Positions 13,991 to 42,602 of a stretch of 64,000 nt of DNA are shown here, one piece after another. The position numbers were made by a program, and so were the translations under genes. The DNA comes from Sphaerisporangium sp. TRM90804 (GTDB taxonomy: Bacteria > Actinomycetota > Actinomycetes > Streptosporangiales > Streptosporangiaceae). The notes below the pieces were generated by a model that saw only the letters and a program-made list of their open reading frames with translations, had not been told where the DNA came from and searched no databases. Location of the stretch: NCBI RefSeq assembly GCF_029846175.1, contig NZ_JARWAC010000002.1, forward strand, positions 1 to 64,000, given 5' to 3'. Numbering within the stretch: the stretch's first letter is position 1; every line of letters begins with the position of its first letter.

Positions 13991-15250
13991 ATGGGCGAAA
14001 GACTCGTGGTGGTCGGGCAGGGCTACGTCGGCCTGCCCCTGGCCGTGAGCGCGGTCGAGGCCGGGTTCGACGTCGTGGGGATCGACGTCGACGAATGGCG
14101 GGTCAAACGGCTCAACGCCGCCGAGTCCTACATCGAGGACGTCGACGACCGGACGCTGGAGGACACGCGCGCGTCCGGCCGCTACCGCGCCAGCACGTGC
14201 TACGCCCAGGCCGAGCGTTTCGACTTCTGCGTCATCACCGTGCCGACGCCGCTGCGCGACGGGGTTCCCGACCTCACCCACGTCACCGACGCCGGGCGCC
14301 GCATCGCGCCGCTGCTGCGGCCCGGCGCGCTGGTCGTCCTGGAGTCGACGACCTACCCCGGCACCACCGAGGAGCACCTGCGCGGCCTGCTGGAGGAGGG
14401 CTCCGGCCTGCGCGCCTGCGAGGACTTCCTGCTCGGCTACAGCCCCGAGCGCATCGACCCGGGCAACGGGCGCTGGCACCTGGAGAACACCCCCAAGGTC
14501 GTCTCCGGCGTCGACCCCGCGTCGCTGCGCGCGGTCCGGGCCTTCTACGAGCGCATCGTCCACCAGACGGTGGCGGTGTCCTCCCCGCGTGTCGCCGAGC
14601 TGTGCAAGCTGCTGGAGAACACCTTCAGGCACGTGAACATCGCCCTGGTGAACGAGCTGTCGGTCTTCGCGCACCAGCTCGGCATCGACGTGTGGGAGGC
14701 GATCGACGCGGCCTCCACCAAACCGTTCGGCTACATGCGCTTCACCCCGGGGCCGGGCGTGGGCGGGCACTGCCTGCCGGTCGACCCGTCGTACCTGTCG
14801 TGGAAGGTGAAGCGCAGCCTGGGGCACAACTTCCGGTTCGTCGAGCTGGCCAACGACATCAACGCCCAGATGCCCGCGCACGTGGTGCACCGCCTCACGC
14901 TCGCGCTGAACCGCCTGGGCAAGCCGGTGTCCCAGAGCCGCGTCCTGCTGCTCGGGCTGGCCTACAAGAAGAACACCGGCGACATCCGGGAGTCGCCCGC
15001 GATCGAGGTGACGCGGGCGCTGAGCAGGCTCGGGGCCGACCTGCGGGTCGCCGACCCGCACGTGGAGTCCCACCCGCTGCCCGCGGGCGTCATGATGGTG
15101 GAGCCGACGGCCTGGGAGCTGGCGCAGGCCGACGCCGTGGTGATCCTCACCGACCACGACCGGTTCGACTACGAGCTGGTCCAGCGGGCCAGCGGCTTCG
15201 TCTTCGACACCCGCAACCGCTGCCGGGGCCCCAACGTCGAGCGGCTGTGA
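13991..15250 (+). CDS. UDP-sugar 6-dehydrogenase, WbpA/TviB type
   Basis: 419 residues; first gene of the polysaccharide island. It oxidises C6 of a UDP-hexose or UDP-HexNAc to the uronic acid using 2 NAD+. Visible are the N-terminal Rossmann motif GQGYVG (9-14), active-site Cys261 in PGPGVGGHCLPVDPSYL, and the C-terminal domain with GLAYKKNTGDIRESP. The run TKPFGYM...PGPG...DPSYLSWK resembles UDP-GlcNAc 6-dehydrogenase (WbpA/TviB) more than UDP-glucose dehydrogenase. WbpP-like epimerases lie in the same island. The ATG at 13991 has AGGTAGGGGG upstream. Confidence 0.85.
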   Translation: MGERLVVVGQGYVGLPLAVSAVEAGFDVVGIDVDEWRVKRLNAAESYIEDVDDRTLEDTRASGRYRASTCYAQAERFDFCVITVPTPLRDGVPDLTHVTDAGRRIAPLLRPGALVVLESTTYPGTTEEHLRGLLEEGSGLRACEDFLLGYSPERIDPGNGRWHLENTPKVVSGVDPASLRAVRAFYERIVHQTVAVSSPRVAELCKLLENTFRHVNIALVNELSVFAHQLGIDVWEAIDAASTKPFGYMRFTPGPGVGGHCLPVDPSYLSWKVKRSLGHNFRFVELANDINAQMPAHVVHRLTLALNRLGKPVSQSRVLLLGLAYKKNTGDIRESPAIEVTRALSRLGADLRVADPHVESHPLPAGVMMVEPTAWELAQADAVVILTDHDRFDYELVQRASGFVFDTRNRCRGPNVERL

Positions 15251-15309
15251 CGCGGCACGGGCCGCGACGCCCGGACGGCTCCCCCTCGGGCCGGGCAAGG
15301 ACGGGCAAG

Positions 15310-15371
15310 GAGATCACCGGGAGCGGCGGCCGCGCGAGGCCGTGCCGGTGATCTCGCCGGAAGAATCCGGC
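15310..15371 (+). promoter_or_regulatory. two consecutive stem-loops in the leader of the first GT-C-like gene
   Basis: Hairpin 1 has perfect 11-bp arms, GAGATCACCGG (15310-15320) and CCGGTGATCTC (15345-15355), with a 24-nt loop. Hairpin 2 follows directly: GCCGGA (15356-15361), loop AGAA, TCCGGC (15366-15371), one base before the ATG at 15373. The GGAAGAA ribosome site lies inside hairpin 2. They could act as a terminator for the upstream gene, an attenuator or a translational switch. Confidence 0.55.
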
Positions 15372-15372
15372 C

Positions 15373-17727
15373 ATGGCCCACACACAGCCCTCCAGCACCT
15401 CGCCGACCGTGACCGGACCGGCGGGCACGGCCGCGGCCGCGGGCGCGAGCGCGCCACCGGGCCCGCCGCGGGCGCGCCGGCCATGGCGGTCGGGATGGAC
15501 GCCCGCCGTGCTGGCCGCCGCCGTCACCGCGGCCGTCCTGCACCACTACGGCGTCCCGGTACGCGACCTGGCCCTCTTCGGCGCCTACCTCGCGCTCTGC
15601 GTGGCGCTGCCGGGCATGCTGCTGGTGCGCGCCCTGTATCCGGGGCGGGTCACCACCGCCGAGCAGGCGGCGTTCGGCCTGGCCCTCGGCTACGCCGTCG
15701 AGGTGCTCGTCTACATCCCCGCCCGGGCGCTCGGGGCCCCGCTGCTCGTGCTGGCCTGGCCGGTCACCGCCTACGCCGCCCTGCTGTTCGTGCCCCCGCT
15801 GCGGCGCCGCTGGAGCTCCCGGCGTGCCGAGGCCGCCCCGCTCTGGGTGTCCTGGGTCCTGGCGCTGGCGCACATCGGCGTGACCGCCTGGGGCGCGCTG
15901 CGGTTCTTCCGCATGAACGCGCTGACGTGGCCGGCGATGGGCGCCAACGACTACGACCTGCCTTTCCACCTGACGCTGATCGGCGAGCTGAAGCACCACG
16001 TGCTCCCGGTGATGCCGCACGTGGCCGGGGAGCCGCTGTACTACCACTGGTTCGTCTACGCCCACTTCGCGGCGTCGAGCTGGATCACCGGCATCGAGCC
16101 CGCGACGCTGCTGTTCCGGCTCACCGTGCCGCCGATGCTCGCCGCCCTCCTGGTGCTGGTGGCGATGACCGGCCGGCGGGTCAGCGGCTCGTGGGCCGGA
16201 ACGCCGGCCGTGCTGGCGGGCACGATGCTCGTGGGCGCCCCGAGCATGTACCTGGGGCACAACGACGTGCTCGCCTGGGGCGGCCTGCAGGACGCCGCCT
16301 GGGTGAGCCCGACCCAGACCTTCGGCGCGCTGCTGTTCGCCCCCCTGGTCGTGCTGGTGCTGGAGCTGTTCGAGCCCGAACGGCCCGGCCTCGGCCGGTG
16401 GCTGCTCATCGCGGTGTTCCTGGTGACGATCATCGGGGCCAAGGCGACGTACCTGCCGCTGCTGGCGGCCGGGCTGACGGCGGTGGCCGTGGCCGGGGGC
16501 CTGCGCCGGCGGCCGTCCCCACGGGTGCTGGGCCTGCTGGCGGCCACCCTGGCGTGCCTCGCGTTCGCCCAGGTGGTGCTGTTCGGCCGCGTGCGGCAGG
16601 GCATGTCGGTCGCTCCCCTGGCGTTCATGCGCGAGAGCTGGGCGGAGCTGAGCGGCATGGAGCCGCTGGCCGGCATCGGGCGGCAGTTCTCACCGCCGCC
16701 GGGGTCCCTGCTCGGCGTCACGCTGGTGTTCCTGCTGTGCTGGGCAGTCACCTGGTGCGGCGTGCTGGGCCTGCTGGCCCGCCGCGGCCTGATCACCGGC
16801 CCCGTCCCGGTGTTCGTGCTCGGCATGGGCGCGGCGGCGCACGGAGCCGTGCTGCTGCTCGGCCACCCCGGGTACAGCCAGTTCTTCTTCCTGTTCGCCG
16901 CCTACCCCTACCTGGTGGTGCTGACCGTCCACGGCACCCTGGTGCTCGCGCGGCGCGCGCGGCTGCCGCTCCACTGGGTGGTCGCCGCGGTCTGCGCCGG
17001 CCTGCTCGCCGCCTACCTGGTGCCGGTGCTCGGCGCGGTGACGACGCCCCTCGCGCCCGGCCGGTCCGACCTGCTGCTGTACCGGCCGTACGCGGTACTG
17101 GTGGCGGTCACCGCCCTGGCGGGCGGCGTCCTGGCCGCGCGGGCCGGACGGCTGAGGGCGTGCGCGCTGGTCGTCATCGCGCTGGGCGCGGTCGCGCTTC
17201 CGGCGTGCGCGCACGCGCACGTCATCTCGGCCATCGGCAAGGCCGCGCAGCGGGGCGTCGGCGGCGTGGCCCCGGAGGCCGACGCCCGGCCCGTCCCCGA
17301 GGGCACCCTCACCGCCGCGCGGTGGCTGCGCGCGCACTCCGGCCCCGACGAGCTGGTGGCGACGAACACGCACTGCCGCTGGGGCGAGGAGGACCCCTGC
17401 GACACCCAGCAGGTCTGGGTGAGCGCGCTCACCGAGCGGCGCGTCCTGGTGGAGGGATGGGCCTACACCGCGCGGAACCTGGACCGGTGGCGGCCGGGCG
17501 TGCGGATCAACCGCCTACCCTTCTGGGACGCCGATCGGCTCCGCGCGAACGACGCCGCGTTCCAGGCGCCGTCGGCCGGGACGGTCGGGCTGCTGCGCGA
17601 CCGGTACGGGGTGCGCTGGCTGCTCGCCGACGAACGGCGCGCGCCCCACCCGGAACTCGCCCGCTTCGCGACGCTGCGGCTCCGCACCGGCGACTACGCG
17701 GTCTACCGCATCGGCGGACCGGGATAA
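15373..17727 (+). CDS. GT-C-like polytopic membrane protein (paralog 1)
   Basis: 784 residues. After a Pro/Ala-rich cytoplasmic N-terminus (about 45 residues) there are many predicted membrane segments (about 14), then a soluble C-terminal domain of about 150 residues. The first large outer loop carries acidic residues (NDYDLPFHL) and the motif YYHWFVYAH, reminiscent of GT-C glycosyltransferases and DUF2298 proteins that use polyprenyl-phosphate sugars. The C-terminal domain includes ATNTHCRW and a VLVEGWAY block. It is a tandem paralog of the next gene. A role as a polyprenyl-P-sugar-dependent transferase is inferred from topology and context. Confidence 0.65.
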   Translation: MAHTQPSSTSPTVTGPAGTAAAAGASAPPGPPRARRPWRSGWTPAVLAAAVTAAVLHHYGVPVRDLALFGAYLALCVALPGMLLVRALYPGRVTTAEQAAFGLALGYAVEVLVYIPARALGAPLLVLAWPVTAYAALLFVPPLRRRWSSRRAEAAPLWVSWVLALAHIGVTAWGALRFFRMNALTWPAMGANDYDLPFHLTLIGELKHHVLPVMPHVAGEPLYYHWFVYAHFAASSWITGIEPATLLFRLTVPPMLAALLVLVAMTGRRVSGSWAGTPAVLAGTMLVGAPSMYLGHNDVLAWGGLQDAAWVSPTQTFGALLFAPLVVLVLELFEPERPGLGRWLLIAVFLVTIIGAKATYLPLLAAGLTAVAVAGGLRRRPSPRVLGLLAATLACLAFAQVVLFGRVRQGMSVAPLAFMRESWAELSGMEPLAGIGRQFSPPPGSLLGVTLVFLLCWAVTWCGVLGLLARRGLITGPVPVFVLGMGAAAHGAVLLLGHPGYSQFFFLFAAYPYLVVLTVHGTLVLARRARLPLHWVVAAVCAGLLAAYLVPVLGAVTTPLAPGRSDLLLYRPYAVLVAVTALAGGVLAARAGRLRACALVVIALGAVALPACAHAHVISAIGKAAQRGVGGVAPEADARPVPEGTLTAARWLRAHSGPDELVATNTHCRWGEEDPCDTQQVWVSALTERRVLVEGWAYTARNLDRWRPGVRINRLPFWDADRLRANDAAFQAPSAGTVGLLRDRYGVRWLLADERRAPHPELARFATLRLRTGDYAVYRIGGPG

Positions 17728-17801
17728 AGGGCCGGTAAGAAGATCGTCGCGAGCGGGCGTCCGCACGGGGCGGCGTGCCCGGCGTCGCCAGACTTGCACT
17801 C

Positions 17802-20222
17802 GTGACCACGTCTTCGCACGTCGACGCCCCTTCGCCGCCTTCCTCCGCACCGGCGGGCACCGCCCGCGGCGCACGCCCGGCGGCGGGCCGGTGGCGGAGC
17901 CTGGCGGCGTCCGGATGGCCGCCGGCCGCGCTGCTGGCCGGCCTCACCGTCGCGGCCCTGCGCCACTACGGCGTCCCCGCCGGCGTCACGGCCGTCTTCG
18001 CCGCCTACCTGCTGCTGTGCGTCGCCCTCCCGGGCGTGCTGCTGGTGCGCGCCCTCCACCCGGGGCCGCGCCCGCTCGCCGAGGACCTCGCCCTGGGCCT
18101 GACGGCCGGCTACGCCGCCGAGGTCCTCGCCTACGTCGCCGCCCGGGCCGCCGACCGGCCGCTGCTGGTCCTGCTGTGGCCAGCGGTCACCTACGCGGCC
18201 TTCCTGCTGCACCCGCGGCTGCGCCGGCACTGGCGCGGCGGCCCCCGGCCGGCCGCCCCCCGGTGGTGGCCGTGGTTCCTGGCGCTGACCGGCGCCTACC
18301 TGGTGGGCTGGAGCGCCTTCACCTGCTGGCGCGTCAACGCGCTCACCTGGCCCGCCGCCGGCGCCGCCCATGTCGACATGCCGTACAACCTCGCCCTGAT
18401 CGGCGAGCTGAGGCACCACGTGCCGCCGACCGTGCCCGTGGTGGCCGGGGAGCCGCTGCACTACCACTGGTTCGCCTACGCGCACGCGGCGGCGTCGGGC
18501 TGGATCACCGGCATCGAGCCCCTGACGCTGCTGTTGCGCCTGTCGGTGCTGCCGATGCTCATGGCGCTGGCCGTCATCGTGGCCATGACGGGGCGGCGGA
18601 TCACCGGCTCGCGCGCCGGCGCGGTGCTGGCCGTGGCCGGCACGCTGCTGGTGGCGGCGCCGAGCCTGTACGCCGGCGCCAACGGGCTGCTGCGCTGGAC
18701 GGGGGTCCTGCACGTGCCGTGGAACAGCCCGACGCAGACGTTCGGGGCGCTGATGTTCGCGCCCCTGGTGCTCCTGGTCGCCGACCTGCTCACCCGGCCG
18801 GGCGCGGGGCGCGCCCGCTGGGCGCTGTTCGCGCTCCTGCTGGTCGCGGTCATGGGCGCCAAGGCCACCTACCTGCCGCTGCTGGCGGCGGGGCTCGTGG
18901 CGGCGGCCGCCGCCGGATGGGCGGTGCGGCGCCGGCCGCCCCGCGAGGCGCTCGCCGCACTGGGGATGACGGCCGCGGCGCTCGCCTTCGCGCAGCTCGT
19001 CCTGTTCGGCGGGGCGCGGCAGGGCACGACCGTCGCCCCGCTGTCGGTCGTGCGCGCCACCTGGGCCGACCTGACCGGCGCCGGGCAGGGGGCGGTGCCG
19101 GGGCCGGCCTCGCTCGCGGCCACCACGCTGCTGTTCGCGCTCTGCTGGGCCGTCACCTGGTGCGGCGCGCTGGGGCTGCTCGGCAGGCCTGGCCTGCTGC
19201 TGCGCCCGCCCGTGGCGTTCACGCTGGGCATGACGGCGGCGGGCGCCGGGCTGATGCTGCTGCTCGGCACCCCCGGCGACCTGAACCAGGCGTACTTCCT
19301 GCAGGCCTGTTACCCCTACCTGGCCGTGCTCGCGGCCTACGGCCTGGTGAGGGCCGTGCGGCGGGAGCGGTGGCCGCTGGCGGCGGTGGCCGGCGCGGCG
19401 GCGGCGGGGATGGCGCTGGCGTATCTGGTACGCGAGCTGTGCGGCGTCGAGGCGCCACTGGCGCTCGGACGGCCGGAGGCCGAGCTGTACCTGCCGTTCG
19501 CGGCGCTGCTCGCCGCAGTCGTCACGGCGGCCGGCCTGCTCGCGGTGTCCGGAACGAGCAATGGCCTTTACAACGTAGATCTGCTTCGGGACGGCGGGCG
19601 GGCGGGCCTGACGGGGCGCCTGCCCGGCCTGCCGGGAGATCGGGCCCGGGGGTGGGCGCTGCTGCTGGTGGCGGTCACGGCGGCCGGGGTGCCGGGGGCG
19701 TGGCAGGCCCGCGTGCTGTCGCACCTGCGCGGCGGCGCGGACGTCAACATCAGCGCCGACGGCCGCCCGGACCCCGCCCAGGTGCCGCGCGGGGCGCTGG
19801 CCGCCACCCGCTGGCTGCGGGCGCACTCCCTGCCCGGCGAACTGGTCGCCACCAACGCCCACTGCCAGTGGGCGCGGCGGGACGTGTGCGACAGCCGCCA
19901 CTTCTGGGTGTCCGCCCTCACCGAGCGGCGCGTTCTCGTCGAGGGCTGGGCCTACACCGCCGCCAACCTGGACCGCCGGCCCGGCGGCGCGTTCCTGGAC
20001 GCCCCCTTCCTGGACGCGGCCCGCCTGGAGGCCAACGACGCCGTCTTCCTGCGGCCCTCGGCCGAGGCGGTGGCGCGCCTGCGCGACGGGTACGGCGTGC
20101 GCTGGCTGGTGGCCGACGAGCGCGCCGCCGGCCACTCGGCGCGCATCGGGCGGTTCGCGAGCCTGCGGGTGCGCCACGGCGACTACGCGGTCTACCGCCT
20201 ACCGGACGCGGACCGCTCCTGA
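17802..20222 (+). CDS. GT-C-like polytopic membrane protein (paralog 2)
   Basis: About 806 residues, collinear with the preceding gene throughout: the same Pro-rich N-terminus, the same YHWFAYAHA loop motif, the same membrane pattern and C-terminal ATNAHCQW and VLVEGWAY blocks. A 30-residue Gly/Arg-rich insert (around SNGLYNVDLLRDGG) is absent from paralog 1. The GTG at 17802 aligns with the paralog's start; GTG 17775 is an alternative. The last 24 bp overlap the end of rmlB on the other strand. It probably arose by tandem duplication with divergence. Confidence 0.65.
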   Translation: MTTSSHVDAPSPPSSAPAGTARGARPAAGRWRSLAASGWPPAALLAGLTVAALRHYGVPAGVTAVFAAYLLLCVALPGVLLVRALHPGPRPLAEDLALGLTAGYAAEVLAYVAARAADRPLLVLLWPAVTYAAFLLHPRLRRHWRGGPRPAAPRWWPWFLALTGAYLVGWSAFTCWRVNALTWPAAGAAHVDMPYNLALIGELRHHVPPTVPVVAGEPLHYHWFAYAHAAASGWITGIEPLTLLLRLSVLPMLMALAVIVAMTGRRITGSRAGAVLAVAGTLLVAAPSLYAGANGLLRWTGVLHVPWNSPTQTFGALMFAPLVLLVADLLTRPGAGRARWALFALLLVAVMGAKATYLPLLAAGLVAAAAAGWAVRRRPPREALAALGMTAAALAFAQLVLFGGARQGTTVAPLSVVRATWADLTGAGQGAVPGPASLAATTLLFALCWAVTWCGALGLLGRPGLLLRPPVAFTLGMTAAGAGLMLLLGTPGDLNQAYFLQACYPYLAVLAAYGLVRAVRRERWPLAAVAGAAAAGMALAYLVRELCGVEAPLALGRPEAELYLPFAALLAAVVTAAGLLAVSGTSNGLYNVDLLRDGGRAGLTGRLPGLPGDRARGWALLLVAVTAAGVPGAWQARVLSHLRGGADVNISADGRPDPAQVPRGALAATRWLRAHSLPGELVATNAHCQWARRDVCDSRHFWVSALTERRVLVEGWAYTAANLDRRPGGAFLDAPFLDAARLEANDAVFLRPSAEAVARLRDGYGVRWLVADERAAGHSARIGRFASLRVRHGDYAVYRLPDADRS

Positions 20223-21191
20223 CCGGCCCCGCGCCGCGCGCCACCAGGCCTGGTGGTCGCGGTACCACGCCACCACCTCGGCCAGCCCCTCCTCGAAGCC
20301 GACCCGCGGCTCGTAGCCCAGGGCGCGGACGCGGGCGCCGTCCACGGCGTACCGGCGGTCGTGGCCCGGCCGGTCGGGGACGTGGTCGACCGCGTCCCAC
20401 CCCGCGCCCAGGGCCGCCAGCAGCCGGCCGGTCAGCTCGCGGTTGGTGAGCTCGGCGCCGCCGCCGACGTTGTACACCTCGCCTGGCGACCCCTTGTCCA
20501 GCACGACGAGGATCGCCCGGCAGTGGTCGTCCACGTGCAGCCATTCACGGACGTTGAGCCCGTCGCCGTACAGCGGCACCCGACGCCCCTCCAGCAGGCT
20601 GGTCACGAACAGCGGGATCAGCTTCTCGGGGTGCTGGTAGGGGCCGTAGTTGTTGGCGCACCGGGTCACCCGCACGTCCAGGCCGTAGGTGCGGTGGTAG
20701 GCGCGGCACATCAGGTCGGCGGCGGCCTTGGCCGCGGAGTAGGGCGAGTTGGGCAGCAGCGGCTCGTCCTCGGTCCACGCCCCCTGCTCCACCGAGCCGT
20801 ACACCTCGTCGGTCGAGACCTGCACGACCGTGCGGACGCCGGCGTCCACGGCGGCCTGCAGCAACGTCTGCGTGCCCAGCACGTTGGTGGTGACGAAGGC
20901 CGACGGGCCGGTGATCGACCGGTCGACGTGCGTCTCGGCGGCGAAGTTGACCACCACGTCGTGCCCGGGGACGACCTCGGCGGCCACACGCGGGTCGGCG
21001 ACGTCCCCCTGGACGAAGGAGAACCGGGGATGACCGGTCACGGGCGCGAGGTTGGCCGGATTGCCCGCGTAGGTGAGCTTGTCCAGGACGGTGACGCGCG
21101 CCGTCTCGTACCCCGCGGGGGCGCCGAGCAGCAGCGAGCGGGTGAAGTGGGAGCCGATGAACCCGGCGCCGCCGGTGACGAGGATCTTCAT
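20199..21191 (-). CDS. rfbB: dTDP-glucose 4,6-dehydratase
   Basis: 330 residues, full length for RmlB/RfbB/RffG. It makes dTDP-4-keto-6-deoxyglucose. Visible are GGAGFIG at 7-13, the catalytic triplet T127-D128-E129 in STDEVYG, Y151/K155 in YSAAK, and the substrate region RCANNYGPYQHPEKLIP. The start overlaps the rfbA stop by 4 bp (ATGA), so the two are translationally coupled. No rmlC or rmlD is present; with the WecE-like enzyme nearby, the product is probably aminated, not turned into rhamnose. Confidence 0.93.
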   Translation of the reverse strand: MKILVTGGAGFIGSHFTRSLLLGAPAGYETARVTVLDKLTYAGNPANLAPVTGHPRFSFVQGDVADPRVAAEVVPGHDVVVNFAAETHVDRSITGPSAFVTTNVLGTQTLLQAAVDAGVRTVVQVSTDEVYGSVEQGAWTEDEPLLPNSPYSAAKAAADLMCRAYHRTYGLDVRVTRCANNYGPYQHPEKLIPLFVTSLLEGRRVPLYGDGLNVREWLHVDDHCRAILVVLDKGSPGEVYNVGGGAELTNRELTGRLLAALGAGWDAVDHVPDRPGHDRRYAVDGARVRALGYEPRVGFEEGLAEVVAWYRDHQAWWRAARGRSGAVRVR

Positions 21192-22255
21192 GCGCTCACC
21201 TGGATCCTGCTGTGGTCGCCGACCATCAGCTCGTGGGTGTTGGAGACGCCGGCGGCCCGGCTGACCTCGACGTTGCGCCCGATGAGGGAGTGCGCGATGC
21301 GGGAGACGCCCTCGATGGAGGAGCCGTCCAGCACGATCGAGTACTCGATCTCGGCGCCGCGCACCGAGCAGCCGGAGCCGATCGAGGTGAAGGGGCCGAC
21401 GTAGGAGGAGATGATCTTGGTGTCGGAGCCGATGACGGCGGGCCCGCGGATCACCGAGTTCTCCACCACCGCGCCCGCCTCGACCACCACGCGCCCGGTG
21501 ATCTCGCTGAGCTGGTCGACCGTGCCGGCGACGCCGGGCTCCACGCGTTCCAGGACGATGCGGTTGCACTCCAGGATGTCGCGCAGCCTGCCGGTGTCGC
21601 GCCAGTACCCGCCGACCAGGTGGGAGTGGACGCGCAGGCCGTTGTCGACCAGCCACTGCACGGCGTCGGTGATCTCCAGCTCGCCGCGCGCCGACGGGCT
21701 GATCGCCCGGACGGCGTCGTGCACGGCGGGAGAGAAGGTGTAGACCCCCACGATCGCCAGGTCGCTGGCCGGGTGCTCGGGCTTCTCCTCCAGCCGGACG
21801 ATCTCCCCGTCCGGGCCCAGCTCTGCGACGCCGTAGTACTGCGGCTCGGCGACCCGGGTGAGCAGGATCTGCGCGTCGTGGCCGCCGCTCAGGAACGACT
21901 CGACCAGGCCCGCGATGCCGTCGATCAGGAAGTTGTCGCCGAGGTACAGCACGAAGGGGTCCTCGCCGAGGAAGGAGCGGGCGATCAGCACGCAGTGGGC
22001 CAGCCCGAGCGGGGCCTCCTGCGGGATGTAGGTGACCCGCAGGCCGAAGCGGGAGCCGTCCCCCACCGCCCGCCGGACCTCGGCGCCGGTGTCGCCGGTG
22101 ATGATCCCCACCTCGGTGATCCCGGCGTCGCGTATCGCCTCCAGCCCGTAGAACAGGACGGGTTTGTTGGCGACGGGGACGAGCTGCTTGGCCGAGGTGT
22201 GGGTCAGCGGGCGCAGCCGCGTGCCCCGTCCCCCCGCCAGCACGAGTGCCTTCAT
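21188..22255 (-). CDS. rfbA: glucose-1-phosphate thymidylyltransferase, long form
   Basis: 355 residues. The N-terminal nucleotidyltransferase domain begins KALVLAGGRGTRLRPLT and a C-terminal left-handed beta-helix follows (repeats such as GRVVVEAGAVVENSVIRG). This is the long RmlA subfamily common in actinomycete antibiotic-sugar and glycan clusters. It makes dTDP-glucose from glucose-1-phosphate and dTTP, feeding RfbB. It is the first gene of the pair, and its ribosome site lies inside a hairpin at 22263-22284. Confidence 0.92.
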   Translation of the reverse strand: MKALVLAGGRGTRLRPLTHTSAKQLVPVANKPVLFYGLEAIRDAGITEVGIITGDTGAEVRRAVGDGSRFGLRVTYIPQEAPLGLAHCVLIARSFLGEDPFVLYLGDNFLIDGIAGLVESFLSGGHDAQILLTRVAEPQYYGVAELGPDGEIVRLEEKPEHPASDLAIVGVYTFSPAVHDAVRAISPSARGELEITDAVQWLVDNGLRVHSHLVGGYWRDTGRLRDILECNRIVLERVEPGVAGTVDQLSEITGRVVVEAGAVVENSVIRGPAVIGSDTKIISSYVGPFTSIGSGCSVRGAEIEYSIVLDGSSIEGVSRIAHSLIGRNVEVSRAAGVSNTHELMVGDHSRIQVSA

Positions 22256-22583
22256 CGCGCACCGTGTCCTTCCGTGAGGACACGTGGCCCCCGGCCACCT
22301 GCCCGATCCATGATCATGCCGCGTCGAATCTACGCCGGGGCCGGGGCACGGCCCTTCGCGGTGATCGCGCTTTGTCGAACGGCGTGCGACATGTTGCCGC
22401 GGCTAGAGGTTGGCGGCCCCGCCCGGGTAAAGGACGGGGACGCCCCGGCCAAGCGGGGCCAATCGCGTGTCAAGGATGGCGTAGCACCGCACGCCCGTCA
22501 CGGCTCGGCCGGGCACCATGTGATGGGGTGACCGCCTGGAGCCGCGGGGTTCGACCCCCTCCGGCCGACGACCGGGGGAACAG
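22256..22583. other. divergent intergenic region rfbA / GT2 gene
   Basis: 328 bp between oppositely oriented starts. It holds the rfbA leader hairpin at its left end and a GGGGGAAC ribosome site for the GT2 gene at its right end. Promoters for both directions must lie here, but I see no convincing -35/-10 pair and no RNA gene. Confidence 0.5.
22263..22284 (-). promoter_or_regulatory. hairpin covering the rfbA ribosome-binding site
   Basis: In the rfbA message, arms CGTGTCCT and AGGACACG (8 bp, perfect) enclose a 6-nt loop. The GGAAGGA ribosome site spans the loop and right arm. The start codon follows 7 nt after the hairpin. Folding would hide the ribosome site. Confidence 0.5.
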
Positions 22584-27241: not shown

Positions 27242-27255
27242 CGCCCGGAGCACCC

Positions 27256-33778: not shown

Positions 33779-34740
33779 GGGTCCTGGTCACCGGCGGCGC
33801 CGGTTTCATCGGATCGGCCGTCTGCCGGGCGCTGCTGGCCCGGCCCCAGGTCGAGCGCGTGACGGTGCTGGACGACCTCAGCAGCGGCGACCTGGTCAAC
33901 CTCGGCGGGGTCGCGGTGGACTTCTTCCTCGGCAGCGTGCTCGACCGCGACCTGGTGGCCGAGCTGGCCGCGGACGCCACCACGGTGGTCCACCTGGCGG
34001 CGCGGCCGTCGGTCCCGAGGTCGCTCGCCGACCCGCTCACCTCGCACGCGGTGAACGCCACGGGCACCGTGCGCCTCCTGTCGGCGTGCCGCAAGACGCG
34101 GCCGCATGTCATCCTGGCGTCCTCCTCGTCGGTGTACGGCGACCGCCCCGAGACGTTCAAGCACGAGGAGCTGCCCGCGCGCCCGCTCAGCCCGTACGGG
34201 GCGGGCAAGCTGGCCGCCGAGGCCTACACCCTGGCGTTCGCGGCGACGTTCGGCCTGCCGGCCCTCGCCTTCCGCTTCTTCAACGTCTACGGCCCCCGGC
34301 AGGCCGCCGACCACGCCTACGCGGCGGTCGTGCCCACGTTCGTGTCGGCCGCCCTGCGCGGCCGGCCGCTGCCGGTCCACGGCGACGGCACCCAGAGCAG
34401 AGACTTCACCTACGTCCTCACCGTCGCGGAGATCCTGGCCGACGCGGTGGTGGGCCGGGTGACGCACCGCACGCCGGTGAACCTCGCCTTCGGGACGCGG
34501 GTGTCGCTGCTGGAACTCGCCGACCTGCTCGCCGGGGTGCTCGGCACGCCCGTCGAGCGGACTTTCCTGCGGGGCCGGGCGGGTGACGTCCGCGACTCCC
34601 AGGCGTCGGCGGCCGTCCTGCGCGAGCTGTTCCCGGGCGTGCGGCCGGTGCCGCTGCCGGACGGGTTGCGCGAGACCGTGGAGTGGTTCCGCGAGGCCGT
34701 GATCCCGGGTGACCGCCCCCGTCTCGGCGCCGGTGCCTGA
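33775..34740 (+). CDS. NAD-dependent UDP-sugar 4-epimerase, WbpP-like
   Basis: 321 residues, extended SDR. GGAGFIG at 7-13, SSSSVYG at 116-122, and Y141/K145 in YGAGK are intact. VHLAARPSVPRS, FFNVYGPRQ and GTQSRDFTYV resemble WbpP/TviC UDP-GlcNAc 4-epimerases. With the WbpA-type dehydrogenase it could produce a galacto-configured HexNAc or uronic acid. It overlaps the upstream GT4 stop by 4 bp (ATGA). A close paralog lies at 35818. Confidence 0.8.
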   Translation: MRVLVTGGAGFIGSAVCRALLARPQVERVTVLDDLSSGDLVNLGGVAVDFFLGSVLDRDLVAELAADATTVVHLAARPSVPRSLADPLTSHAVNATGTVRLLSACRKTRPHVILASSSSVYGDRPETFKHEELPARPLSPYGAGKLAAEAYTLAFAATFGLPALAFRFFNVYGPRQAADHAYAAVVPTFVSAALRGRPLPVHGDGTQSRDFTYVLTVAEILADAVVGRVTHRTPVNLAFGTRVSLLELADLLAGVLGTPVERTFLRGRAGDVRDSQASAAVLRELFPGVRPVPLPDGLRETVEWFREAVIPGDRPRLGAGA

Positions 34741-34793: not shown

Positions 34794-35795
34794 ATGGACA
34801 CCACCGCTAAACGCAGCTACCTGATCACGGGCGGCAGCGGGTTCGTCGGGTCGCACCTGACCGACGCGCTGCTGGCCCGCGGCGACTCCGTCGTGGTCCT
34901 GGACAACCTGTCGACCGGACGCCTGGCCAACCTGCGCCCGCACCCCGACCTGCGCTTCGTGCACGGCTCGGTGCTGGACGAGCTCATCGTCGACGAGCTG
35001 GTCCACCAGTGCGACGTCGTCATCCACCTGGCGGCCGCGGTCGGCGTCAAGCTGATCGTCGAGCAGCCGCTGCGGTCGCTGACCACCAACATCCGCGGCT
35101 CGGAGATCGTCATCGAGACCGCTTACCGCTACCGGAAGAAGATCCTGCTCACCAGCACGAGCGAGATCTACGGCAAGAACTCCTCCGGTCCGCTGCCCGA
35201 GGACGCCGACCGCATCCTGGGCAGCCCGAGCGTGGTCCGCTGGGCGTACAGCACGGCCAAGGCCGTCGACGAGATCCTCGCCAACGCCTACCACCGCGAG
35301 CGCGGGCTGCCGACGATCATCGTCAGGCTGTTCAACACCGTCGGCCCGCGGCAGAGCCCGGCGTACGGCATGGTGATCCCCCGGCTGGTCCGCCAGGCGC
35401 TGCGGGGCGTGCCGCTCACGGTCTTCGGCGACGGCACGCAGAGCCGCTGCTTCGCCCACGTCGCCGACGTGGTGGACGCCCTGCTGCGGCTGCTCGACAG
35501 CGACGCCGCGATCGGCCAGACCTTCAACATCGGCTCCTCGGACGAGCTCACCATCCTGGAGCTCGCCAAGCTGATCATCCAGTACACCGGGTCGGCGTCC
35601 GGGGTCGAGCTGATCCCGTACTCGGAGGCCTACGTCGTGGGCTTCGAGGACATGACCCGCAGGATCCCCGACACGACGAGGATCCGCACGCTGACCGGCT
35701 GGGCACCCACCCGGACCCTGCACGACATCTTGATCGAGACGGTCGCCGACGCCGAGCGCGAGACGGCCCCGGCGGGGTCCCTGGTGGAGACGTGA
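34794..35795 (+). CDS. NAD-dependent epimerase/dehydratase, UDP-glucuronate-decarboxylase-like
   Basis: 333 residues, extended SDR. GGSGFVG at 13-19, TSTSEIYG at 120-127 and Y152/K156 in YSTAK are present. RLFNTVGPRQSP and SRCFAHVADVVDAL fit the branch containing UDP-glucuronate decarboxylases and related dehydratases. It clearly differs from the two WbpP-like neighbours. The reaction is not settled: decarboxylation, epimerisation or dehydration are all possible. It lies 53 bp after one WbpP-like gene and 22 bp before the other. Confidence 0.75.
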   Translation: MDTTAKRSYLITGGSGFVGSHLTDALLARGDSVVVLDNLSTGRLANLRPHPDLRFVHGSVLDELIVDELVHQCDVVIHLAAAVGVKLIVEQPLRSLTTNIRGSEIVIETAYRYRKKILLTSTSEIYGKNSSGPLPEDADRILGSPSVVRWAYSTAKAVDEILANAYHRERGLPTIIVRLFNTVGPRQSPAYGMVIPRLVRQALRGVPLTVFGDGTQSRCFAHVADVVDALLRLLDSDAAIGQTFNIGSSDELTILELAKLIIQYTGSASGVELIPYSEAYVVGFEDMTRRIPDTTRIRTLTGWAPTRTLHDILIETVADAERETAPAGSLVET

Positions 35796-35817: not shown

Positions 35818-36765
35818 GTGAAGATCGTAGTGACCGGCGGCGCCGGCTTCATCGGGGCGAACCTGTGCGGGGAGCTGTCCCGGCGCCCGGAGGTATCCCA
35901 GGTGGTGGTGCTGGACGACCTCAGCTCCGGTCGTGCCGAGAACCTTCAGGGGACCGGCGCCGACATCGTCAAGGGAAGCATCCTCGACCGCCCGCTGCTG
36001 GAGGACACCCTGGCGGGCGCGGCGGCCGTCGTGCACCTGGCCGCCCGCCCGTCCGTCGCGATGTCGGTGGCCGACCCCGAGGGCTGCCACGAGGTCAACG
36101 CCACCGGCACGCTGCGGGTCCTGGAGGCGTGCCGGCTCGCCGGCGCGTACGCGGTCGTGGCCTCCTCGTGCGCGGTGTACGGCGACCGCCCGGACAACCC
36201 CAAGCACGAGGACCTGCCGGCGCTGCCGCTCAGCCCGTACGGGGCGGGCAAGCTCGCCACCGAGGCCTACGCCCAGGCCTACGCGGCCAGCTTCGGCATG
36301 CGCACGCTCGCGCTGCGCTTCTTCAACGTGTACGGCCCCTTCCAGGCGGCCGACCACGTGTACGCCGCCGTCATCCCGGCGTTCGCCGACCGCGCCCTGC
36401 GCGGCGAGCCGCTGCTCATCCACGGCGACGGGCTGCAGACGAGGGACTTCACCTACGTCGGGACCGTCGTGCGCGTGCTGGCCGACGCCGTGCTGCGCCA
36501 GGTGGTGTCCGACGCGCCGGTCAACGTCGCCCAGGGGTCGCGCACCTCACTGCTGGAGCTGGCCGCCGAGTTCGGGCGCATCCTGGACCGGCCGCTGCCC
36601 GTGGAGCACCTGCCCGCGCGCGAGGGGGACATCCGCGACTCGCGGGCGTCCTGCGAGCGGCTGCACCGGCTGTTCCCCGACCTGGAGCGGGTCCCGCTGG
36701 AGACCGGGCTGCGGCGGACGCTGAGCTGGTTCCGCAGGTCGGCGGCCGAGGAGGCGCGGGCGTGA
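35818..36765 (+). CDS. NAD-dependent UDP-sugar 4-epimerase, WbpP-like paralog
   Basis: 315 residues, starting GTG with GAGAGGTGG upstream. It is collinear with the 33775 protein: GGAGFIG at 7-13, VHLAARPSVAMS, SSCAVYG (Cys-Ala where the paralog has Ser-Ser), Y141/K145 in YGAGK and FFNVYGPFQ. Catalytic Ser, Tyr and Lys remain. The two may act on different sugars. Its stop overlaps the GTG of the next gene (GTGA). Confidence 0.8.
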   Translation: MKIVVTGGAGFIGANLCGELSRRPEVSQVVVLDDLSSGRAENLQGTGADIVKGSILDRPLLEDTLAGAAAVVHLAARPSVAMSVADPEGCHEVNATGTLRVLEACRLAGAYAVVASSCAVYGDRPDNPKHEDLPALPLSPYGAGKLATEAYAQAYAASFGMRTLALRFFNVYGPFQAADHVYAAVIPAFADRALRGEPLLIHGDGLQTRDFTYVGTVVRVLADAVLRQVVSDAPVNVAQGSRTSLLELAAEFGRILDRPLPVEHLPAREGDIRDSRASCERLHRLFPDLERVPLETGLRRTLSWFRRSAAEEARA

Positions 36766-37868
36766 TCCCATCACACGTGACCGCGATGGGGGTCGCCGTC
36801 ACGACCGGGGCGGCGGCGTTCGTCCTGGTGGCCGTGCTCACCGAGGCCACCCGGGCGTTCGCGCTGCGGCACGGCATCGTCGACCGCCCGGCCGCGACCC
36901 GGCCGCACCGCCGCCCGACGCCCTATCTCGGCGGCGTCGCGCTCGTCGCCGGCACCCTGCTGCCGCCCGTGGTGGCGATCGGCGGCTGGACACTCCAGGT
37001 CGCCATGATCATGGCGGGCGGCGTGCTGGTCGCGGTCATCGGCGCGGCCGACGACCTGCGCCCGCTGCACCCCGCCGTCCGGCTGCTGACCGAGGGCGCG
37101 GTCGCCGCGGCCGTGGTGGCCGCCGGAGTGCGCCTGCACCTGCTCGAAGCGGTGGTCCCGTTCGGCGGATGGCTCGACGCGGTCCTCACCACCGCCTGGA
37201 TCGTCTTCGTCACCAACGTGTTCAACATGATCGACAACACCGACGGCGTGCTCGGGTCGATCACGATCACGACGGCCGGCACGCTGGCGGCGGCCGCCTA
37301 CCTGACGGGCCGGCCGGACGTCGCGCTGCTCGCGTTCTCGCTGGCCGTCGGCTGCCTGGGCTTCGTCGCCCACAACTGGGCGCCCGCCCGCATCTTCATG
37401 GGCGACGCCGGCTCGCTGTACATCGGCTTCACGCTGGCGGCCTGCGCGGTGACGGCGTTCCAGGGGGCGGCGCCCGCGACGGCCCTGCCCGCCCTGCTCC
37501 TGATCACCTTCGTCCCGACCGTGGACACCTGCCTCGCGGTGGTCGCGCGCCGGCGGGCCCGCCGCTCGTGGCTGGTCGCCAGCCCCGACCACCTGGCCCA
37601 CCGCCTGGTCGCCGCCGGCTTCGCGCCGCGCCAGATCGCGCTGGTGCTGTCCGCCGCCGCCACGGTGACGAGCCTGCTCGCCCTGCACCTGACGCTCGGC
37701 CGCATCCCGGGACCGCTAGCGCTCGCCGGGGTGCTCGGCGCCGGCGCCGGCCTGGTGGCGCTGCTGCTGCGGGCGCCGGGCCGCTATCCCTCCCCCCCGC
37801 CCCGTCCCCCAACACGCGACGACCGCGAGCCACGTCCCGCCACGGTCCCGCTCGAAGAAAGGCATTGA
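36762..37868 (+). CDS. WecA/MraY-like polyprenyl-phosphate sugar-1-phosphate transferase
   Basis: 368 residues, about 10-11 membrane helices. The family catalytic motifs are visible: GAADDLRPL (DD at about 96-98), NMIDNTDG at 155-162 and FMGDAGS at 212-218, with a His-rich cytoplasmic loop DHLAHRL. It starts the glycan by moving a HexNAc-1-phosphate onto undecaprenyl phosphate. The GTG overlaps the upstream stop by 4 bp. A Pro-rich cytoplasmic tail of 30 residues ends the protein. It could serve teichoic acid synthesis also, but context favours this polysaccharide. Confidence 0.88.
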   Translation: MIPSHVTAMGVAVTTGAAAFVLVAVLTEATRAFALRHGIVDRPAATRPHRRPTPYLGGVALVAGTLLPPVVAIGGWTLQVAMIMAGGVLVAVIGAADDLRPLHPAVRLLTEGAVAAAVVAAGVRLHLLEAVVPFGGWLDAVLTTAWIVFVTNVFNMIDNTDGVLGSITITTAGTLAAAAYLTGRPDVALLAFSLAVGCLGFVAHNWAPARIFMGDAGSLYIGFTLAACAVTAFQGAAPATALPALLLITFVPTVDTCLAVVARRRARRSWLVASPDHLAHRLVAAGFAPRQIALVLSAAATVTSLLALHLTLGRIPGPLALAGVLGAGAGLVALLLRAPGRYPSPPPRPPTRDDREPRPATVPLEERH

Positions 37869-37871
37869 TCG

Positions 37872-39254
37872 GTGGAACCGCTGTACTACGTGCGCCTGGC
37901 GCGCAAGAGCTGGGTGTTCATCGTCCTGTCCCTGGTCCTCGCGGGCGCCGGCGCGTGGGTGGTCACCGCCCGGACGCCCGCCAAGTACGTCGCGACGATC
38001 AGCATGCTGGTGTCCGGGCACGACAACGAGGGAAGCCTGTCGACCGCGCTGCAGGCGGCGGCGCTCTCGGAGCAGAGGATCCAGTCCTACGCCAGCCTGC
38101 TGTCCAGCCGCCGCCTCATCCGCGAGGTGGTGCCGGACGACCAGATCGACGAGGTCCAGGCCGCCGTCAAGGCCGAGGCCATCCCGGCCACGGTGCTGCT
38201 CCGGGCGTCGGTCACCCACACCGACCCGCTACGCGCGGCACGCCTGGCCAACTCCCTCGGCACCGCCTTCGCCAAGCTGATCGACCACATCGAGCGGCCC
38301 ACCCGGTCCAGCGACTCCACCGTCAAGGTGACGGTCGTTGACGAGGCCGAGGTGCCGGTGACGCCGGTCAGCCCGCGCCCGGCCGTCAACCTGGCCGTCG
38401 CGCTGCTGCTCGGCCTGATCATCGCCTTCAGCCTGCTCGTGCTGCACGACCGGCTGGACACCACGATCAGGACCACCCAGGCGCTGCAGCGCATCACCGG
38501 GACGCCCACGCTCGGCATCATCGAGTACGAGCGTGACGCCCGGCGCCTGCCGTTGATCATCCGCCGTGAGGGCCAGTCGACCCGGTCGGAGGCGTTCCGC
38601 TCGCTGCGCACCAACCTGCAGTTCATGGGCGTGGACCGCCAGCCGCGGTCCCTGGTCGTCACCAGCTGCCTGCCCGAGGAGGGCAAGTCCTCGACCGCGA
38701 CGAACCTGGCCATCACGTTCGCGCAGGCCGGCTGGCGGGTGATCCTGGTCGACGCCGACCTGCGCCGCCCGCGCGTGCCGTCCTACCTCGGCATCGAGGG
38801 CGCGGTCGGGCTCACCAACGTGCTGATCGAGTCGGTGGACCTCGCCGGGGCCGTGCAGACCTGGGGGGACGACAGCCTGTCCGTCCTGCCCAGCGGGCAG
38901 ATCCCCGCCAACCCCAGCGAACTGCTCGGCTCGCAGGCGATGCGCGACCTGGTGGGCCGGCTCACCAAGGAGTACGACATCGTCGTGGTCGACGCCGCGC
39001 CGCTGCTGCCGGTCACCGACGCCGCCGCGCTGGCGGCCATCTGCGACGACGTGCTGCTCGTCGTGCGGCACGGCAAGACCCGCCGCGAGCACCTCGTACG
39101 CGCCGGGGAGCTGCTGTCGTCGATCAACGCCCGGCTGGTCGGATCCGTGCTGAACTTCGTGCCGCCCAAGTCGGGCCAGGTGTACGGGTACGGCGCCGGA
39201 GAGGGCTACAAGCCGGAGGACACGAACGAGCGCCCGCCCCTGGTGGGGGTCTGA
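37872..39254 (+). CDS. polysaccharide co-polymerase / bacterial tyrosine kinase (Wzz-Wzc type)
   Basis: 460 residues. An N-terminal Wzz domain between two membrane helices (about 14-33 and 171-192) is fused to a cytoplasmic BY-kinase: Walker A PEEGKSST (268-275), Walker A' ILVDAD (291-296), Walker B VVVDAAP (371-377). A short C-terminal tyrosine cluster has Y438, Y440 and Y446. Autophosphorylation at such clusters controls chain length and export. GTG 37872 begins 3 bp after the WecA-like stop. The last 49 bp overlap the phosphatase gene on the other strand. Confidence 0.88.
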   Translation: MEPLYYVRLARKSWVFIVLSLVLAGAGAWVVTARTPAKYVATISMLVSGHDNEGSLSTALQAAALSEQRIQSYASLLSSRRLIREVVPDDQIDEVQAAVKAEAIPATVLLRASVTHTDPLRAARLANSLGTAFAKLIDHIERPTRSSDSTVKVTVVDEAEVPVTPVSPRPAVNLAVALLLGLIIAFSLLVLHDRLDTTIRTTQALQRITGTPTLGIIEYERDARRLPLIIRREGQSTRSEAFRSLRTNLQFMGVDRQPRSLVVTSCLPEEGKSSTATNLAITFAQAGWRVILVDADLRRPRVPSYLGIEGAVGLTNVLIESVDLAGAVQTWGDDSLSVLPSGQIPANPSELLGSQAMRDLVGRLTKEYDIVVVDAAPLLPVTDAAALAAICDDVLLVVRHGKTRREHLVRAGELLSSINARLVGSVLNFVPPKSGQVYGYGAGEGYKPEDTNERPPLVGV

Positions 39255-41736: not shown

Positions 41737-41744
41737 CCGCGGCG

Positions 41745-42602
41745 CTACTCGGCGCCCGACGAGGCCCGGCGACGGCGGACCGAGACCAGCACCGTGCCGG
41801 CGCCGGCGGCCAGCAGGATGCCGCCCACTCCGGCCACGGCCGCCACGGGCGCCCCGGTGAACGGGAGCCTGCCGGGCTGGGCCGCGGCGGGATGCGCGTG
41901 GACCGGCGGCCGGCCCTCGTGCCCGCCACCGGGCGCGTAACCGCCGCCGCCCTCGCCGCCACCCCCGCCACCGGCGCCCGCGCCGGCGGACGAGTCGTCG
42001 TGGTGCCGGTGGCCGCCCCCGCCCCCGCCCGACGACTCCTCGCCGAGCAGGAACCTGTGGGCCTGGATCACCCGGGTGCGCCCGTCGTGCTCGCCGCCCC
42101 GGCCGGAGCGGTCGAGCTCCGACCTCGACAGCGGCTCGCGGCCCTCGGCCTCGTCATGGGCGTGCCGGCCCTTGAGGTGGCAGCTGACGATGTTGCTCCT
42201 GCCCGACTGGTTGCCGGCGGCGTCCCTGGCCCTCACGAAGTAGGAGATCTTGTGCACCCGCGGCGGCCGGTCGACGTAGTTGAGCACGTTGCCCGCCACC
42301 GTGGCGATGAGCCGGAACGGCGAGGCGGAGGCGTAGATGTCGTAGGCCACCACGCCCACGTTGTCGACGGAGGGGGTCCAGGTCAGCCTGATCAGCCCGC
42401 CGCCGAGCGCGGTCGCGGTCAGGAACGGAGGGCTCGGCGGCTGGGTGTCGGGCGGGGTGGGCGGGTACGGCTGCGCCGCCACCAGGCCGAACGGCCCGGG
42501 CGCCGCGGTGGGCCCGGCCAGCGCCGGTCCAGCCCCCATCAGAACCATTCCGCACCCCGCGGCGACCGCCGCGAGCACAGGTATCGTGCGTTTCCCCGCC
42601 AT
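41745..42602 (-). CDS. LPXTG-anchored surface protein with fibronectin type III domain
   Basis: 285 residues. A signal peptide (ending near AGPALAG, about 29) precedes one FnIII domain (about 56-142; LIRLTWTPSVDNVGVVAYDIY). A charged stretch and a Gly-rich linker follow, then the sortase signal LPFTG (246-250), a hydrophobic helix and RRRR tail. It should be covalently attached to the cell wall. Its place at the end of the island next to DUF4012 suggests a partner in surface-glycan attachment or adhesion (inference). No sortase gene is in the window. Confidence 0.82.
   Translation of the reverse strand: MAGKRTIPVLAAVAAGCGMVLMGAGPALAGPTAAPGPFGLVAAQPYPPTPPDTQPPSPPFLTATALGGGLIRLTWTPSVDNVGVVAYDIYASASPFRLIATVAGNVLNYVDRPPRVHKISYFVRARDAAGNQSGRSNIVSCHLKGRHAHDEAEGREPLSRSELDRSGRGGEHDGRTRVIQAHRFLLGEESSGGGGGGHRHHDDSSAGAGAGGGGGGEGGGGYAPGGGHEGRPPVHAHPAAAQPGRLPFTGAPVAAVAGVGGILLAAGAGTVLVSVRRRRASSGAE

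Follow-up and report, generated by a model that had tools for sequence, protein, structure and literature searches.

Does an island that holds the genes for two different surface sugars build both into one polymer, or are two glycan systems interleaved there? The question is raised by positions 13991-39254 of the window, the whole stretch of 64,000 nucleotides analysed here (positions 1 to 64,000 of contig NZ_JARWAC010000002.1, assembly GCF_029846175.1), from the 8.3 Mb genome of the actinomycete Sphaerisporangium sp. TRM90804. An earlier reading of the sequence (the original prediction) had combined a WbpA/TviB-type dehydrogenase and two WbpP/TviC-like epimerases, a route to N-acetylhexosamine (HexNAc) uronic acids as in the Vi antigen, with a route to deoxythymidine diphosphate (dTDP)-4-acetamido-4-deoxyfucose (Fuc4NAc) as in the enterobacterial common antigen (ECA), and had assigned both sugars to one Wzx/Wzy repeat unit. 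Sequence profile searches found all of the enzyme classes concerned within 13991-39254. With moderate confidence in the explanation as a whole, we read the island as two interleaved modules, one of which would attach Fuc4NAc outside the cell. Enzyme families, folds and gene linkage were computed directly; genes were called by GC content by codon position together with family matches, and NCBIfam scores are written as bits/curated cut-off. G and L numbers are our handles for genomes and loci. The first module, with the composition rmlA-rmlB-wecE-wecD-GT2 (ArnC/GtrB-like)-GtrA-GT-C, where GT denotes glycosyltransferase, is represented in the window by the following features.

15373..17727, plus strand: membrane protein 1, 784 residues, GT-C fold by model (AlphaFold2, Foldseek, VIA-align)
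17775..20222, plus strand: membrane protein 2, 815 residues, paralogue of protein 1 (55% identity)
20199..21191, minus strand: RmlB, dTDP-glucose 4,6-dehydratase (TIGR01181 422/365 bits)
21188..22255, minus strand: RmlA, long form (TIGR01208 445/320 bits)
22427..22510, minus strand: GtrA-type flippase gene, likely decayed to a remnant (28-residue match to the GtrA of L003, in the syntenic place)
22584..23519, plus strand: GT2 polyprenyl-phosphate sugar transferase, ArnC/GtrB-like (PDB, PHROG and NCBIfam comparisons)
23477..24328, minus strand: WecD-like GCN5-related N-acetyltransferase (GNAT), predicted from its fold to be the dTDP-4-amino-4-deoxyfucose (Fuc4N) N-acetyltransferase
24328..25527, minus strand: WecE, dTDP-4-keto-6-deoxyglucose 4-aminotransferase (NF008687 508/375; TIGR02379 467/435)

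A dTDP-Fuc4NAc route in the island is well supported by sequence and model comparisons. RmlA, RmlB and WecE passed their curated cut-offs, and in a PDB sequence search WecE reached 400 bits with 4piw, a structure that is named WecE in PMC7725333. For the GNAT, the sole NCBIfam match at E 0.001 was WecD, at 21.8 bits far under the cut-off of 219. Its AlphaFold2 model (29 aligned sequences; predicted local distance difference test score, pLDDT, 88.9; predicted TM-score, pTM, 0.84) was matched first by WecD 2fs5 both in Foldseek (E 1.4e-11, TM-scores 0.60/0.75) and in VIA-align (Z 20.4, 214 aligned residues, root-mean-square deviation 2.9 Å; next chain Z 15.8), these being ranks among the chains listed, beyond which other families may still match. 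We predict from this model that the GNAT acetylates dTDP-Fuc4N. Of the RmlA-RmlB-WecE-WecD-like set of the original prediction, the first three proteins are borne out by cut-offs; for the fourth the predicted fold favours a WecD kind, and the sequence score falls short of it.

The window WecE is 69-79% identical to the WecE of many Streptosporangiaceae (76% for the congener protein G004:C100:435-1595), and at E 1e-60 WecE was found in 10/10 congeners, 2/26 genomes from the family's other genera and 1/23 farther genomes. At all ten congener loci the GNAT (50-61%) and GT2 (73-75%) adjoin it. WecE-family proteins of 48-54% identity also occur in many Lachnospiraceae and some other non-Actinobacteria (L051-L082), where neighbours were compared with the island proteins only.

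Which genes keep company with WecE bears directly on how the sugar may be used. The GT2 has its best PDB match in ArnC (9hwj, 121 bits, full length), then in sll0501 (113 bits), which we take to be GtrB, and then in dolichol-phosphate-mannose synthase. A GtrB-like PHROGs match scored 171 bits; the top NCBIfam models, ArnC (145/529) and PgfS (124/500), both fell under their cut-offs, and hydrophobicity gave two transmembrane (TM)-like windows. By these relatives it appears to be a GT-A/GtrB-type polyprenyl-phosphate transferase of the kind found in multi-component transmembrane glycosylation.

The acceptor transferase of such a system would have a GT-C fold, and the 784-residue membrane protein 1, which has no Pfam or NCBIfam match, is predicted to adopt one. 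Its AlphaFold2 model (35 sequences; pLDDT 87, pTM 0.89) drew GT-C enzymes in the nine best Foldseek rows (E 4.3e-6 to 2.1e-3), row 6, named just as a translocon complex, being taken as its oligosaccharyltransferase chain. VIA-align gave Z 12.9-15.9 for yeast and mammalian oligosaccharyltransferase (yeast 15.9), 12.9 for AglB, 12.9 for EmbB, 12.7 for ArnT, 12.2 for AftA and 12.1 for PglB. A near-invariant aspartate, D195, comes after helix 157-179, where the aligned range begins, and probably occupies the position of the first GT-C loop. Membrane protein 2, which likewise matched no Pfam or NCBIfam model, was assigned via its paralogy with the modelled protein. GT-C-like proteins (E 1e-15) occur in 7/148 genomes of the class, our own included, and there is a real chance that they constitute a new GT-C family.

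A sister cassette (L097:12857-18419, with its GT-C at 18.6 kb; also L110, and L018 in part) pairs the GT-C with another DegT aminotransferase, 29-31% identical to WecE; L097 and L110 also have a different GT2 (24-25%). With a different aminotransferase and GT2 beside it, the GT-C may serve as a platform for further amino sugars.

Gene linkage ties these partners to WecE. Among 100 family genomes (WecE counted at E 1e-100, GT2 at E 1e-60), WecE is present in 18 and the GT2 in 16: both in 15, GT2 only in one, WecE only in three and neither in 81 (Fisher p 5e-14, uncorrected for kinship). The two genes share a contig in 15/15 cases, with a gap of at most 1 kb in 10, about 4-5 kb in four and 7 kb in G093. 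From the best 80 of 115 WecE relatives we took 33 loci for counting (L003-L034 and L049, that is Streptosporangiaceae and Actinoallomurus, the latter being L033), the other 47 being left out as more distant; presence was scored within 10 kb of WecE or up to the contig end, and 'none' below means none seen within those bounds. Five loci do not reach this full length, L013 and L049 among the 33 and L035, L047 and L048 outside them. Twenty additional stretches, the window's own included, formed a further comparison set. At the 33 loci we found RmlA in 31, the GT2 in 29, the GT-C in 27, RmlB in 26 and the GNAT in 22. In Kribbella and Nocardioides (L036-L040) the loci retain WecE, GNAT, GT2 and GT-C; the flanks compared there contain no close RmlA, RmlB or dehydrogenase, and four of these loci have RmlB-like short-chain dehydrogenases/reductases (SDRs) of 27-33% identity.

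A GtrA-type gene accompanies the set in relatives, either flanked by GT2 and rmlA or following wecE, in 29/33 loci and in 25/27 of those with both GT2 and rmlA; five such copies were checked and all pass PF04138. In the window, 22427-22510 is likely a remnant of this gene, a judgement from sequence that is helped by its position. Against a core-trimmed alignment of 19 GtrA proteins, 0/1000 shuffles and 0/239 other window peptides scored as high; trimming to the core was chosen after a first, untrimmed result, in which 1/300 shuffles but 73/240 other window peptides did. A profile of 23 GtrA proteins gave no match to it. The remnant raises the possibility, which we consider quite unlikely, that the first module is falling out of use in this strain, lipid-linked Fuc4NAc being neither exported nor displayed. 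The other genes of the module are open frames as long as those of relatives, one GtrA copy over the Pfam cut-off lies elsewhere in the genome (G000:C2:235700; genome, contig, position), and in Lactococcus lactis, according to PMC8035078, a single GtrA serves several systems. Because the local copy looks decayed, the distant one would serve the flip.

The second module consists of a dehydrogenase, an epimerase or decarboxylase, GT4, WecA, a bacterial tyrosine kinase (BY-kinase), Wzx and Wzy, and it also occurs without WecE. Its features in the window are these.

13991..15250, plus strand: nucleotide-sugar 6-dehydrogenase, WecC/Cap5O-type (three UDPG_MGDP_dh Pfam domains; TIGR03026 399/190 bits)
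28299..29393, plus strand: GT4 glycosyltransferase (Pfam, on a slightly longer frame)
29332..30825, minus strand: Wzx-like membrane protein, start uncertain (9 TM-like windows; 59% orthologues in L003 and L007)
30832..32184, minus strand: Wzy-like membrane protein (8 TM-like windows; 55-57% orthologues in L003 and L018)
32597..33778, plus strand: GT4 glycosyltransferase (Pfam, on a longer open reading frame)
33769..34740, plus strand: nucleotide-sugar 4-epimerase 1, WbgU/WbpP-like (PDB matches; GDVRDS motif)
34794..35795, plus strand: UDP-glucuronate decarboxylase (UXS)-like SDR (best PDB match UDP-glucuronic acid decarboxylase 1, 180 bits)
35818..36765, plus strand: nucleotide-sugar 4-epimerase 2, WbgU/WbpP-like (PDB matches; GDIRDS aligned to WbgU GDVRHS)
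36786..37868, plus strand: WecA/MraY-like polyprenyl-phosphate HexNAc-1-phosphate transferase (PF00953 8.5e-32; ECA_wecA 117/326, under cut-off)
37872..39254, plus strand: Wzz-linked BY-kinase (TIGR01007 168/108 bits)

The WecA-like initiator and the BY-kinase of the original prediction are thereby confirmed at family level. Its Wzx and Wzy fared less evenly: TM-like windows and orthologues agree with them, and neither protein matches a Pfam or NCBIfam family, so that both stay putative, named from hydrophobicity and orthologues only. Features absent from the original prediction are the GT2, membrane proteins 1 and 2, the GtrA remnant and the SDR at 34794-35795.

These genes separate from the WecE set. 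A dehydrogenase at least 67% identical to the island's, a limit of our own choosing (matches of 55-63% occur in other genomes, and some genomes carry a second dehydrogenase match in that range), is present in 18/100 family genomes, eight with WecE and ten without; conversely, 10/18 WecE genomes lack it. Around the dehydrogenase in stretches of the ten WecE-less genomes (L097-L106), second-module genes were found in 6/10: L099 and L102-L106 have at least three of Wzx, Wzy, the second GT4 (GT4b), WecA, BY-kinase, epimerase and UXS-like genes, with an epimerase or UXS-like gene in five (L102-L106). L097 and L098 contain GT-C genes; there is little of either module in L101 or in L100, which is truncated where its contig starts. 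It is here that a single repeat unit, with HexNAc-uronic acid and Fuc4NAc both added in the cytoplasm by the GT4 and GT2 enzymes onto a WecA-primed lipid, has to be weighed. Both routes do share the island with WecA, Wzx, Wzy and the BY-kinase, and 8/100 genomes have both WecE and the dehydrogenase (at least 67%), on a single contig. Against this, the two gene sets part freely, in ten genomes each way, the GT2 linked to WecE belongs by its relatives to the polyprenyl-phosphate class, and WecF (GT56), the Fuc4NAc transferase of ECA, had no match in the genome in a search that detected the E. coli control. We therefore regard one shared repeat unit as unlikely; on this point the original prediction is not supported as worded, since an ArnC/GtrB-type GT2, GtrA and GT-C are the regular companions of the Fuc4NAc genes and the modules separate.

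What the second module makes can be read less sharply. The dehydrogenase has its best PDB match in 4r16 (241 bits), followed by Cap5O (202) and CalS8 (191), which we take to be a dTDP-glucose dehydrogenase; among NCBIfam models, those for UDP-N-acetylmannosamine (ManNAc) dehydrogenase (279 and 239 bits) exceed TviB (211), all under their cut-offs. It has the motifs ENTFR and GGHC in common with 4r16, where CalS8 has GGSC, and of 30 dehydrogenase frames above 350 bits in related loci, 29 carry GGHC and one GGQC. By sequence the enzyme falls in the UDP-ManNAc/GlcNAc dehydrogenase group. Both epimerases have 6wjb and 6dnt among their best PDB matches, with WbgU slightly lower, and the RmlB, GalE and TviC models of NCBIfam score about alike for each, all under cut-off. 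The serine at the WbgU-aligned site presumably accompanies HexNAc substrates. A HexNAc-uronic acid route, from the dehydrogenase and two WbgU/WbpP-type epimerases, is plausible on this evidence. In that much the original prediction keeps its enzyme families and its route; the TviB and TviC cut-offs were missed.

The third SDR complicates the picture. It aligns TSEIYG and QSR with TSEVYG and QTR, and its top NCBIfam model is LegB (165/475), all models being under cut-off. With its closest PDB relative a UDP-glucuronate decarboxylase, a reading by which the dehydrogenase uses UDP-glucose, and UDP-glucuronic acid is turned into UDP-xylose by the UXS-like enzyme and UDP-galacturonic acid by the epimerases, with no HexNAc-uronic acid, has some probability, although we incline against it; it concerns the second module only and is compatible with our explanation. 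The UXS-like SDR lies in the same gene run, it is linked with the dehydrogenase in L102 and L106, CalS8 is a 191-bit relative, and for the epimerases the TviC model gives no advantage in score over those of GalE and RmlB. The ENTFR/GGHC motifs, the top scores with UDP-ManNAc dehydrogenases and the epimerase serine aligned with WbgU speak for HexNAc substrates instead. UDP-2-acetamido-2-deoxyxylose (XylNAc), which the UXS-like enzyme would form by decarboxylating a HexNAc-uronic acid, was also considered, and a literature search yielded nothing deciding. A UDP-XylNAc pathway is known in a Bacillus.

Since CalS8 is a relative of the dehydrogenase at 191 bits, a calicheamicin-type aminopentose antibiotic pathway (CalS8, CalS13) was considered as well. 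It was rejected as the main reading on the score of WecE, 400 bits with 4piw versus 62 with CalS13, and is further disfavoured by GGHC in the dehydrogenase where CalS8 has GGSC.

Dehydrogenase matches at E 1e-60 occur in 87/100 family genomes, mostly at about 50% identity. No WecB stands beside the WecC-type gene in the island: the sole WecB-family (PF02350) match of the genome lies at G000:C3:347479, and 2 kb from it is a second HexNAc-type dehydrogenase (C3:350425), 51% identical to the island's (region G000:C3:347479-351681). Any gene pair for N-acetylmannosaminuronic acid is likely to be that one and not in the island.

Compared with known systems, the first module most resembles multi-component transmembrane glycosylation (GtrABC; CsbB-GtcA-YfhO), described in the accessible text of PMC8035078 with a GT-A polyprenyl-phosphate transferase, a GtrA (here in relatives), a GT-C fold and clustered genes; the sugars given there are galactose, glucose and N-acetylglucosamine. 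O-antigen Gtr systems follow the same logic, as far as the accessible part of PMC11127046 describes them. The island differs in its own dTDP-amino-sugar pathway, in a GT-C with no Pfam or NCBIfam match and in its apparently decayed local GtrA. We judge the module, from this comparison, to be a variant of such glycosylation. In the Arn pathway, ArnA-ArnB-ArnC-ArnT puts 4-amino-4-deoxy-L-arabinose on lipid A. The module is like it in having a DegT aminotransferase, an ArnC-type GT2 and a predicted GT-C acceptor transferase, with a formyltransferase in some relatives, and unlike it in using a dTDP-6-deoxyhexose and not a UDP-pentose, in the WecD-like acetylation, in the absence of lipid A and in a GT-C with no sequence family match. 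ECA shares with the island WecE, a WecD-fold acetyltransferase, RmlA/RmlB, a WecA-like enzyme and a WecC-family dehydrogenase; the island differs in having ArnC/GtrB and GT-C proteins. A WecG-family protein is encoded outside the island (G000:C14:23827). What the island has in common with the Vi antigen is the family of TviB for the dehydrogenase and that of TviC for the 4-epimerases, at scores of 211/592 for TviB and 145 and 129/760 for TviC; it has a WecA/Wzx/Wzy/BY-kinase set instead. The Vi and ECA likeness claimed originally thus survives at the level of families, with WecE reaching its cut-offs and TviB, TviC, WecA and WecC missing theirs; enzyme by enzyme, WecE, RmlA, RmlB and the BY-kinase pass, and the GNAT, the epimerases and the WecA-like protein stay under.

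A further comparison is offered by the gsf cluster of Actinoplanes missouriensis, for which the accessible text of PMC13390465 describes a HexNAc-dehydrogenase domain, a GtrA, a two-TM GT2 and a domainless 11-TM protein in neighbouring genes, and reports smaller sporangia and spores not fully matured upon deletion. No aminotransferase is listed for gsf in that text, and the likeness is one of described gene content. With the domainless 11-TM protein in a similar place, a GT-C role there is testable.

We infer the products, donor lipid, direction and acceptor of the first module as follows. RmlA, RmlB, WecE and the WecD-like acetyltransferase would make dTDP-Fuc4NAc, the ArnC/GtrB-like GT2 would load Fuc4NAc onto polyprenyl phosphate, a GtrA-type flippase, presumably the copy elsewhere in the genome, would turn the lipid-linked sugar over, and on the outside of the cell either or both of the GT-C proteins would attach the sugar to a surface glycan. 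The second module (dehydrogenase, two 4-epimerases, UXS-like decarboxylase, GT4s, WecA, Wzx, Wzy and BY-kinase) would make an acidic Wzx/Wzy polymer, which would be the most obvious acceptor for Fuc4NAc. This extracellular attachment via polyprenyl phosphate and GT-C is the account that we consider probable, if by no great measure, and several observations weigh against it. WecE occurs without the GT2 in G098, G099 and G119, the last also without the GT-C; G032 (L098) keeps GT2, GtrA, GT-C and RmlA without WecE, and G013 has GT-C pieces with neither WecE nor GT2. Within the stretch compared, the GT2 was not found in 4/33 loci (L009-L011, L028) and the GT-C in 6/33. The activities of both proteins are predicted only, and the local GtrA is apparently a remnant only. 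The query-normalised Foldseek TM-scores of the GT-C matches are low (0.24-0.40), the ArnT, Emb and AftA rows of VIA-align lie below Z 13, a level common for helical proteins, and only oligosaccharyltransferase rows rise above Z of about 13. In the accessible text of PMC13390465, moreover, the authors called no GT-C in the A. missouriensis cluster.

L098 (G032:C15:1-20000) keeps the dehydrogenase as well; the GNAT was not seen there, and the genome is without WecE at E 1e-100.

The N-substituent of the sugar appears to vary among relatives. A formyltransferase (PF00551) stands where the GNAT otherwise sits in L023 and L025, L110 has both, and in 9/33 loci neither was seen. The GT2s of eight of these nine form one clade with support of 100/100 and a long stem (39 rows). 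The GT2s of the nine loci where no acyltransferase was seen average 58.9% identity to that of the window, versus 71.9% for the 18 GNAT loci with a GT2 and 70.8% for the two with a formyltransferase (p 3e-5), and identities are alike across the groups for WecE (p 0.30), RmlA (0.16) and RmlB (0.89); GT2 rows under 40% and RmlB rows under 50% were set to missing, and the p-values count related loci as independent. On the GT2 tree all labels together can be explained by 6 changes, where shuffling gave a mean of 13.1 and in 0/200 cases a number as low. L016 and L035, in which likewise neither enzyme was seen, and the distant L045, L047 and L048 fall outside the clade. The pattern fits, at the level of sequence, a GT2 whose binding of the WecE-derived sugar depends on the N-substituent. 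As the clade consists of four Microbispora and four Streptosporangium loci, few independent events are involved, and a divergent GT2 acquired in a single ancient transfer could also account for it.

Three further genes lie at 25726-28278.

25726..26424, plus strand: class I methyltransferase (Pfam; present in a subset of related loci)
26612..27241, plus strand: methyltransferase-like protein (Pfam)
27262..28278, plus strand: candidate deacetylase (motif by eye only; no Pfam or NCBIfam match)

The first, which possibly modifies the amino sugar, recurs with 64-76% conservation in some of the first-module loci, among them 6/8 with the divergent GT2. Elsewhere in the window, a protein with a signal-like N-terminus and a C-terminal LPFTG-type sortase motif, both seen by eye (41745-42602, minus strand), adjoins a DUF4012 protein (39958-41736, minus strand). 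An AAA+/peptidase M41 protein of 1051 residues, long for an FtsH relative, is encoded at 7907-11062 (minus strand), and an AurF-like N-oxygenase family protein (Pfam E 3e-16) at 47271-48422 (plus strand).

In a survey covering 12,939 genomes (PMC7725333), Gammaproteobacteria were the only group to which Fuc4NAc was assigned, with the warning that strict thresholds could conceal such sugars elsewhere, and we recognised no report of an actinobacterial Fuc4NAc system among titles and abstract openings in the open-access literature. The complete dTDP-Fuc4NAc gene set recurs in Gram-positive actinomycetes, and its partner genes point to extracytoplasmic decoration, not to an ECA-type repeat unit. 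The exchange of acetyl-, formyl- or no seen transferase beside a change of GT2 clade offers a natural series for donor specificity. Tentatively, and short of conviction, we suggest that Streptosporangiaceae and some other actinobacteria may possess an unreported system that decorates an outer glycan with dTDP-Fuc4N-derived sugars (N-acetyl, N-formyl or unacylated) via polyprenyl phosphate and an unclassified GT-C family, in which the specificity of the GT2 would change with the N-substituent, and whose site of action may be the envelope of sporangia or spores, as for gsf in Actinoplanes.

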